Assembly: GCF_000246855.1 (NCBI RefSeq)
Contig: NC_016609.1
Span: forward strand, 372,001-436,000
Direction of reading: 5' to 3'
DNA length: 64,000 nucleotides
Origin: Niastella koreensis GR20-10
GTDB taxonomy: Bacteria > Bacteroidota > Bacteroidia > Chitinophagales > Chitinophagaceae
Shown: piece by piece, positions 22,862 through 23,510 of the stretch
Position numbering within the stretch: position 1 is the first letter of the stretch
Layout: every line of letters starts with the position of its first letter
Notes under the pieces: generated by a model
What the model was told of the DNA's origin: nothing
Seen by the model: the letters and a program-made list of their open reading frames with translations, nothing else
Databases searched by the model: none
Program-made: the position numbers and the translations under genes

Positions 22862-23135
22862 GAATCCCTGCGTCCGCCAGCTGGCGGATATGAGCCCGAT
22901 TGATGTCGCTACTTATTTGCGAAATGTTTTTAAGAACTGGATCGAACCTGCGTCCGCCTGCTGGCGGATATGAGCCCGATTGATGTCGCTACTTATTTGC
23001 GAAAATGTCTTTAAGAACTGGATCGAACCTTCGTCCGCCAGCTGGCGGATATGAGCCCGACGAGCTACCGCTGCTCTACTTCGCGATGTAATATTTTATT
23101 TTATTCGAACCTGCGTCCGCCAGCTGGCGGATATG
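22862..23135 (-). repeat. tRNA-fMet-like palindromic repeats, copies 1-4
   Basis: Four units at about 80-82 bp spacing. Each reads, on the minus strand, GGGCTCAT, then a hairpin TCCGCC-NNNN-GGCGGA (22873, 22953, 23034, 23116), then GGTTCGA(TCC), where copy 1 is cut. In the true tRNA, GGGCTCAT and GTTCGATCC are anticodon-arm and T-arm sequence. Copy 3 keeps 50 bases (23051-23100) identical to 23258-23307, including the tRNA 5' half. Only hairpin loops and a few positions vary. Confidence 0.85.
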
Positions 23136-23185
23136 AGCCCAACGAGCTCGCCACATCAACGCAATAAATACTAATTCAGAGTAAT

Positions 23186-23214
23186 AAAAAAAGGCTTCCT
23201 TTCAGAAGCCTTTT
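23186..23214 (-). terminator. Terminator after tRNA-fMet
   Basis: On the minus strand AAGGCTTC pairs with GAAGCCTT, followed by seven T residues, six bases after the tRNA 3' end. Confidence 0.88.
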
Positions 23215-23220
23215 ACCAAG

Positions 23221-23292
23221 TTGCGAAGGGTGGGATCGAACCACCGACCTTCGGGTTATGAGCCCGACGAGCTACCGCTGCTCTACTTCGCG
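23221..23292 (-). tRNA. Initiator tRNA-fMet (CAT)
   Basis: A 72-base cloverleaf reading CGCGAAGTAGAGC...TTCGCAA. The anticodon arm TCGGGCTCATAACCCGA has the three G-C pairs typical of initiators, and the acceptor end has the C1-A72 mismatch. The T-arm is GGTGG-TTCGATC-CCACC. CCA is not encoded. The D-loop is two bases shorter than in E. coli. It is surrounded by seven degenerate copies of parts of itself and ends at an intrinsic terminator. Confidence 0.96.
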
Positions 23293-23510
23293 ATGTAATA
23301 TTTTATTCGAACCTTCGTCCGCCAACTGGCGGATATGAGCCCGATTGATGTCGCTACTTATTTGCGAAAATGTCTTTAAGAACTGGATCGAACCTTCGTC
23401 CGCCAACTGGCGGATATGAGCCCGATTGATGTCGCTACTTATTTGCGAAATGTTTTTAAGAACTGGATCGAACCTGCGTCCGCCAACTGGCGGATATGAG
23501 CCCGATTGAA
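23293..23510 (-). repeat. tRNA-fMet-like palindromic repeats, copies 5-7
   Basis: Three units with hairpins at 23318, 23399 and 23479 (spacing 80-81 bp), lying upstream of the tRNA on its own strand. They would form the 5' leader of its precursor. Their hairpin loop is AGTT on the minus strand, against AGCT in copies 1, 3 and 4, so the two groups were probably amplified separately. The block AAATAAGTAGCGACATCAAT replaces the tRNA 5' half. Confidence 0.85.

Follow-up and report, generated by a model that had tools for sequence, protein, structure and literature searches.

A GIY-YIG Nuclease Gene and Palindrome-Disrupted tRNA-fMet Copies in Niastella koreensis: Probable Remnant of a Homing-Type Element of tRNA Genes

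Introduction

Phage SegB may be regarded as the nearest tested analogue of the locus reported here. It is a GIY-YIG homing endonuclease which cuts within tRNA genes and is often located beside tRNAs in phages, and tandem amplification of the tRNA-segB segment needs both SegB activity and recombination genes (PMC13096335). The likeness lies in a free-standing GIY-YIG gene (in T-even phages) beside tRNA genes and in this tandem amplification. In contrast, SegB is phage-borne, and the available part of that article contains neither palindrome-scarred copies nor a favoured isotype; how SegB spares its own genome is presented there as an open question.

Other systems resemble single parts of the locus. 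UPF0213 and SLX1-like single-domain GIY-YIG proteins are the nearest solved sequence relatives of the protein encoded here. To our knowledge, none of these proteins has been reported as a mobile element associated with tRNA genes; SLX1, for its part, is a nuclease selective for structure. Endonuclease-bearing group I introns occur in tRNA-fMet genes elsewhere. In the accessible text of a 2006 survey of the GIY-YIG superfamily (PMC1564403), no word beginning with Bacteroid or Cytophaga was found. With regard to palindromes, REP/RAYT systems also have short, dispersed palindromes in many copies, and the genome studied here has matches to Y1 transposases; however, the palindromes of the present array are accompanied by a GIY-YIG gene and are located in a tRNA arm. 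The available part of the source (PMC3733652) gives GTAG or CGTC tags as a feature of REPs. GC clusters of mitochondria are mobile palindromes which change more in loops than in stems, but they are organellar, and the consulted part of the source does not place them within displaced copies of a tRNA next to a dedicated endonuclease gene; its reference list includes a 1981 paper whose title puts such palindromes beside Neurospora tRNA genes (PMC4478555).

In this study, we analyzed a stretch of 64,000 nucleotides from Niastella koreensis GR20-10 (hereafter the window), in which an array of broken tRNA-fMet copies surrounds the intact gene. The array is probably the remnant of a free-standing homing-type element of tRNA genes.

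An Array of Broken tRNA-fMet Copies

The only tRNA detected in the window by ARAGORN is Met(CAT) at 23220–23292 on the minus strand (Rfam RF00005, 65.6 bits), adjoining the Era gene. Around it, seven units were found on the same strand between 22867 and 23503, each a partial copy of tRNA-fMet with a palindrome at the anticodon-loop position. In minus-strand order, the region consists of a promoter-like site, three units, the intact tRNA-fMet, a terminator-like hairpin, four units, and an 85-aa GIY-YIG ORF (22557–22814, minus strand), which is the last member of the array and its presumed mobility enzyme. The site TTTG...TATCTTTG (23628–23659, minus strand), upstream of the tRNA leader, is promoter-like. 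The hairpin with its T run follows the tRNA at 23186–23212 (minus strand). The promoter-like site is kept, and a similar hairpin is present, at the empty site of a congener described below.

All seven units contain GGGCTCATA-TCCGCC-N4-GGCGGA, in which GGGCTCATA represents the 5' strand of the anticodon arm plus most of its loop, and TCCGCC-NNNN-GGCGGA substitutes for the next 12 to 14 tRNA bases. The palindrome position is therefore CTCATA^A, in the anticodon loop. The loop of the hairpin is AGTT in units 1 (23465–23503, palindrome 23479–23494), 2 (23385–23423, palindrome 23399–23414), and 3 (23307–23342, palindrome 23318–23333); AGCT in units 4 (23105–23140, palindrome 23116–23131), 5 (23020–23100, palindrome 23034–23049), and 7 (22867–22897, palindrome 22873–22888); and AGCA in unit 6 (22939–22977, palindrome 22953–22968). 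The T-arm piece GTTCGATCC is whole in four of the seven units, is shortened to GTTCGA in units 3 and 4, and is missing in either form from unit 7 (22897–22867). Unit 5 retains the 5' half of the tRNA in full, with 51 bases (23100–23050) identical to the true gene and its leader (23307–23257). Part of the tRNA is missing from every unit. The seven extra copies are broken tRNAs, and four of them are located past the terminator.

The earlier note, made from the sequence of the window, had reported seven hairpin units at about 80-bp spacing, with a constant stem and loops AGCT, AGCA, and AGTT. All of these were found again, with spacings of 80, 81, 82, 202, 81, and 80 bp. Its T-arm piece is absent from one unit, and the 50 bases that it gave as common to one copy and the true gene became 51. 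Its interval ends just short of the GIY-YIG ORF. An assembly error, which it had named as a way in which the array could be spurious, is unlikely because the genome is a single 9.03 Mb contig, the units are not identical to one another, and the same arrangement recurs in other genomes.

Several known types of sequence were compared with this region. Two ORFs of at least 80 aa were found in the array, the GIY-YIG ORF and another reading through the repeats; neither is an integrase, unlike in a tRNA-integrating element with a tyrosine integrase. Rfam, searched over 22400–24000 at E up to 0.1, matched RF00005 at the intact gene and no other family, the units being unmatched; the array is accordingly not a described RNA family. 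A group I intron in tRNA-fMet does not fit either, as the tRNA is uninterrupted (ARAGORN) and no intron core was matched in Rfam.

A second array was found outside the window in the same genome (C1:342082–342414), beside a second CAT-anticodon tRNA. Behind this tRNA are four exact copies of a tRNA piece with a palindrome after TTCATA, and a further copy, whose stem is altered, precedes it. The genome's four PF01541 matches are all more than 50 kb away from this second array. Elsewhere in the window, an 88-aa ORF (20998–21264, minus strand) has no Pfam match, and its DNA is 93% identical in the congener at locus L282.

The GIY-YIG Protein

The ORF at the end of the array matches the Pfam GIY-YIG domain PF01541 (E 1.6e-17), and the GIY/YIG-type, R, and E motifs are retained, by eye, in the 27 aligned rows shown (one truncated). 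It is free-standing, with no intron or intein around it (Rfam over 22400–24000: tRNA only). Its solved relatives by sequence are 1ywl and 1zg2 (UPF0213; E 9.3e-5 and 2e-4) and 6seh (SLX1; E 0.004). Kinship with SLX1 is compatible with a hairpin or cruciform substrate and proves nothing. The NCBIfam model of group I intron endonucleases (TIGR01453) was matched weakly and below its cut-off (E 0.0027; 17.7 bits, cut-off 56). The protein is likely to be a member of the homing-endonuclease kind.

A defence-family identity was rejected since PADLOC gave weak matches to PDC-S14 only (E 0.0046 and 0.014). Carriage by plasmids or phages was rejected too: the window protein had no match in the plasmid collection at E 1e-8 or in the phage collection at E 1e-6. 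Two viral contigs match the DNA pattern used below; no tRNA occurs within the stretches examined, and these matches look like chance.

The dN/dS ratio between the window ORF and the copy of congener G385 is 0.07 at dS 1.84, and where computable between species of the genus it is 0.07–0.16 at dS 1.05–2.09, which is near saturation; dS is saturated between the window ORF and those of G071 and G150. Beyond the genus, the best identity of the window protein in other classes is 64% (G346 and G237), and its homologues in its own family show 60% (G068), 59% (G060), and 63% over 74 residues (G052). The closer match to other classes than to its own family hints at horizontal spread, or else may reflect saturation.

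Presence and Absence at the Same Locus in Relatives

We compared the era/tRNA-fMet locus in ten genomes of the genus and found that it ranges from empty to three GIY-YIG genes. The closest congener found (G388, locus L282; Era 97% identical) has one tRNA-fMet, no units, and no nuclease gene. With blastn, the window aligns to L282 at 24300–23524, 23304–23184, and 22535–22250 (the last at 70%). The extra DNA of the window, on the minus strand, comprises an upstream stretch with three units (23523–23305) and a downstream stretch with four units and the GIY-YIG ORF (23183–22536). The G388 assembly is 61% complete in 500 contigs and a collapsed repeat is possible there, yet no unit remains.

The number of GIY-YIG genes at this locus is one in the window genome (G000), two in G385, three (one cut) in G071, and one in G150. 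In G071 they are 70–72% identical to that of the window and alternate with palindrome copies at 341 bp per unit. Six palindromes and no GIY-YIG gene occur within the stretch examined in G387, and the short stretches of G391 and G386 have one palindrome and one tRNA, respectively. Two tandem intact tRNA-fMet genes are present in congeners G390 and G389 (L286 and L289), with one palindrome besides in G389.

In the family, the pattern of palindrome plus T-arm is present in nine of 195 genomes. Four genomes (G068, G100, G060, and G027) have a plain order of intact tRNA-Met, terminator-like stretch, GIY-YIG ORF, and displaced copy, the latter comprising a few tRNA bases, the palindrome, and then the T-arm and acceptor end of the host tRNA. 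A similar terminator also follows the displaced tRNA end in G068, G071, and G027. The displaced copy in G126 and G014 has no adjacent GIY-YIG gene by motif search; such absences are weak evidence, because this search missed GIY-YIG genes known from protein search (e.g., L086 and L095).

The comparison with relatives, which carry the full unit, indicates that the nuclease gene belongs to the array. On the best reading, a free-standing gene for a single-domain GIY-YIG endonuclease, directly beside a tRNA gene, constitutes the autonomous element. The array of the window consists mostly of units without a nuclease gene, with one gene left at its end.

Association with tRNA-Met and Other tRNAs in the Phylum

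Named genome contigs were scanned with the pattern CATATCCGCCN{1,8}GGCGGAN{2,8}TTCRA, which yielded at least 116 stretches. Among the matches listed there were 80 loci, 72 in Bacteroidota and eight in other phyla; since they were found using the palindrome, the constancy of its stem in them is by construction. At 38 of the 72 listed Bacteroidota loci, every match has at least 700 bp on either side. Among these 38, a same-strand tRNA-Met was found within 700 bp at 33 loci, a GIY-YIG ORF at 28, both at 25, and neither at two. For all 72 listed loci, stretch ends included, the counts were 51 with tRNA-Met, 50 with GIY-YIG, and 11 with neither. None of the eight listed matches in other phyla (three of them near an end) has tRNA-Met or GIY-YIG within 700 bp, and we take these matches to be chance. 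From the named relatives, the element would be one of Bacteroidota. The units are often tandemly repeated; as an individual example of a composite array, L170 of Ancylomarina euxinus (6433–7878) holds three intact tRNA-Met genes, then six palindrome copies and one GIY-YIG gene.

A second approach started from the protein. Homologues of the window protein (E ≤0.001) were detected in 61 of 98 family genomes and in 122 of 198 phylum genomes. We examined 99 nuclease loci: 30 from the family search, 29 new ones from the phylum search, and 40 further phylum places (one per cluster, roughly in listed order); they are those most like the window protein and not a sample of all GIY-YIG proteins. A same-strand tRNA was present within 400 bp at 82 of the 99 loci and an opposite-strand tRNA at none. 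The other 17, some of them at contig ends, have no tRNA within that distance, and two or more GIY-YIG ORFs, fragments included, were seen at 31 of the 99 loci. The companion tRNAs have 14 amino-acid identities: Met at 20 loci, Ser 13, Arg 8, Leu 8, Asn 7, Asp 5, Pro 5, Gly 4, Val 3, Ala 3, Cys 2, and Phe, Lys, and Gln one each; one further locus has a Stop-like decoy. The nuclease of the window itself (L046) is outside the 82, its nearest intact tRNA being more than 400 bp off.

Could the cutting be a domesticated means of raising tRNA dosage against anticodon-cutting toxins or defences? There are extra intact tRNA copies at L286, L289, and L170, and, according to the part of the source available, SegB amplifies tRNA-Tyr against Septu (PMC13096335). 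However, all seven extra copies in the window are broken and cannot supply function, and we regard this explanation as scarcely credible.

Displaced tRNA Pieces and Their Palindromes

To examine the displaced pieces independently of the palindrome, we used loci found by protein, 67 of which have a tRNA call no more than 250 bp ahead of the nuclease gene. A displaced end was defined by at least 17 of 24 matched bases, and a palindrome by a perfect stem of at least six that the tRNA lacks. At 51 of these 67 tRNA-first loci a displaced tRNA 3' end follows the nuclease gene, the other 16 having none at the threshold used. A new palindrome was found in 44 of the 51 displaced ends versus 326 of 2,550 dinucleotide shuffles; the remaining seven contain longer, shorter, or imperfect inverted repeats, by eye. 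Fifteen loci show the mirror order, nuclease gene and then tRNA. There, a displaced 5' end precedes the gene at 13 loci, with a palindrome in 12 of the 13, mostly in the D-arm region by eye. Some displaced pieces carry two or three palindromes. The displaced copy is usually disrupted by a palindrome, but an intact tRNA stays beside the element.

By eye, the anticodon arm is disrupted in Arg (L066, L073, and L060), Val (L230 and L251), and Gly(tcc) (L233 and L265), the T-arm in Asp (L252, L275, and L261) and Gly(gcc) (L240 and L272), and the D-arm in Pro (L072). The disrupted arm in Arg L064 and Pro L250 differs from that of their fellows of the same identity. The disrupted arm often goes with tRNA identity and is near-uniform in Met, though not within every identity. 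At L063, the anticodon arm of the displaced tRNA has been replaced, and ARAGORN called this copy tRNA-Stop(tta).

The Met copies are the most regular. Of 14 that pass the threshold, 13 have TCCGCC/GGCGGA with varied loops, so that the constant stem and variable loop noted in the window also hold in copies found without using the palindrome. In 12 of these 13 the palindrome comes after CTCATA or TTCATA, and in L213 after CTCTTA. The remaining copy (L061) has TCCCGA/TCGGGA, and its nuclease lies elsewhere in the tree described below. Among the five Met loci under the threshold, L212 and L219 do hold the TCCGCC palindrome, after CTCTTA, L238 holds it in the T-loop region, and L221 and L075 have no tRNA piece in the sequence examined. 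Both L212 and L219 have CTCTTA in place of CTCATA, and an apparent second, imperfect palindrome is seen in their T-arm region.

The topology just described (rebuilt tRNA, insert, displaced end as a direct repeat, and tandem units) is that of an att site, and tRNA att-site integration is known to produce it; integrases use the arms that are disrupted here. It might be proposed, then, that small circles carrying part of a tRNA integrate site-specifically, in the manner of genomic islands that integrate at tRNA genes, with the GIY-YIG protein as cargo. We consider this quite improbable: the window array has no integrase ORF, its units are about 80 bp (341 bp in G071), and a palindrome in the displaced end would be unexpected from an integrase.

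A different proposal, partly that of the earlier note, is that the units are functional RNAs which regulate or process tRNA-fMet, serve as RNase P decoys, or act as a sponge for tRNA-binding factors. Three units lie between the promoter-like site and the tRNA and could be transcribed, some displaced copies are still called tRNAs (L063), and the stem is constant with a variable loop. But the closest congener found has no units, the units flank the tRNA on either side and vary in their number and boundaries, and many other tRNAs bear the same scars together with a nuclease gene. Because the nearest congener lacks units and other tRNAs are scarred with a nuclease gene, processing signals or RNase P decoys were rejected as the main reading; the position of four units past the terminator and the incompleteness of all units also stand against them. 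Functional RNA in general appears very improbable.

Nuclease Phylogeny and tRNA Identity

A tree was built from 83 nucleases and 77 columns with a quick method that left 37 of 80 inner branches open, the window nuclease being entered as Met. Changes of tRNA identity on it number 31 against a shuffled mean of 56.9, and none of 200 shuffles was as low. The observed (shuffled) changes were 4 (18.7) for Met, 2 (7.8) for Leu, 4 (12.3) for Ser, 4 (6.8) for Asn, and 2 (3.9) for Gly; Arg, Asp, Pro, Val, and Ala are unclustered. One weakly supported cluster holds 18 of the 21 Met nucleases, along with one Phe row and two Ser rows. On this tree, nuclease lineages track tRNA identity overall, though not for each identity.

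Palindromes Elsewhere in the Genomes

The window genome contains 87 TCCGCCNNNNGGCGGA sites versus none for a reversed control pattern, so these palindromes are not chance; 11 of the 87 are in the two tRNA arrays. We read 25 of the other 76 sites, picked among the matches listed. Their mean flank complementarity was 3.96 versus 2.51 in permuted data (s.d. 0.28), with none of 2,000 permutations as high. These TCCGCC-N4-GGCGGA sites thus lie inside other inverted repeats beyond expectation, those at L311 and L318 forming, by eye, the loop of terminator-like hairpins. Other palindrome families also exceed their reversed controls, with an excess of CCTGCC in all 20 genomes examined and of TCCCGA in 17 of them. 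TCCCGA palindromes outnumber TCCGCC ones by 140 to 93 in G000 and 41 to 22 in G027, with a TCCCGA pattern that permitted longer loops, so that the two counts are not strictly comparable. Two Y1 transposase matches (PF01797; E 3.7e-20 and 4e-4) were found in G000, neither near the array.

These data raise the possibility that the palindrome is an independent REP-like element which enters hairpin loops everywhere, tRNA pieces being harmless sites and the GIY-YIG gene a passenger. The 87 genomic sites with 11 in tRNA arrays, the complementary flanks and terminator-like settings, the excess of further families, and the Y1 transposase matches all agree with such a mover. On the other hand, Met copies from several families have TCCGCC in an identical position, although TCCCGA is commoner in G000 and G027, and displaced pieces are scarred far above shuffles. 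Moreover, a nuclease homologue is found in nearly all genomes with at least ten TCCGCC palindromes: 15 of 16 in the family sample, against 61 of 98 for that sample as a whole (Fisher p 0.004), and 21 of 22 in the phylum sample, against 122 of 198 (p 0.0003). This is a correlation only, which is uncorrected for lineage and genome size and includes G000 in both samples. We judge an independent palindrome with a passenger nuclease to be unlikely. As the same families are common genome-wide while G000 has four GIY-YIG matches, the palindrome may have a mover of its own: either the palindromes are spread by the same activity as the element, or the displaced pieces get them from an independent mover.

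A Possible Homing Cycle and Its Significance

The earlier note had come nearest with its suggestion of a mobile palindrome targeting tRNA-fMet. Members of the genus indeed differ at this locus, the closest congener found having an empty site; relatives do carry the same arrangement, and most often the companion is tRNA-Met (33 of the 38 loci with enough flank among the matches listed). What the note overlooked is the GIY-YIG gene, the likely actor, and the many other tRNAs.

For the homing-type element that we favour, the following cycle can be proposed. The nuclease would cut the tRNA gene near the disrupted arm, as suggested by a palindrome position that is constant in most Met copies and recurs in some other isotypes. 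The element-bearing chromosome would serve as the template for repair, its intact tRNA pairing with one broken end and its displaced copy with the other. The recipient would thereby gain the nuclease gene and a displaced copy, and its working tRNA would be rebuilt. With the palindrome in place of the cut site, the displaced copy would be neither cuttable nor functional as a tRNA. Occasional cutting of the intact tRNA, followed by unequal repair from sister units, might then produce tandem arrays. The intact tRNA beside the element should remain a target, so self-cutting must be limited somehow. The palindrome may be an answer to self-destruction for the displaced copy only, not for the intact gene.

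A wider hypothesis can be formulated, which we offer tentatively and regard as doubtful. There would be a phylum-wide family of minimal GIY-YIG nucleases, with many lineages of one tRNA each, which reside at chromosomal tRNA genes and on each insertion leave a rebuilt tRNA and an arm-swapped decoy whose palindrome at the cut site is an immunity mark. The same loop-opening activity would spread palindromes to hairpin loops such as those of terminators, so that the nuclease would be the mover of a REP-like class.

In the open-access literature, covered mostly through titles and abstracts, we found no account of GIY-YIG genes accompanied by tRNA copies with a palindrome scar. Within the literature searched, chromosomal nuclease lineages tied to particular tRNAs, together with a palindrome scar, appear to be new. 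One practical consequence is a warning for tRNA annotation, as some displaced copies are called tRNAs (such as the tRNA-Stop of L063). If the proposed reading is true, it would explain the small GIY-YIG ORFs beside tRNA genes and the hairpins in broken tRNA copies in this phylum, and it would provide a candidate mover for dispersed palindromes. It would also mean that a homing-type nuclease, with lineages tied to tRNAs, parasitises highly conserved genes without killing its host.
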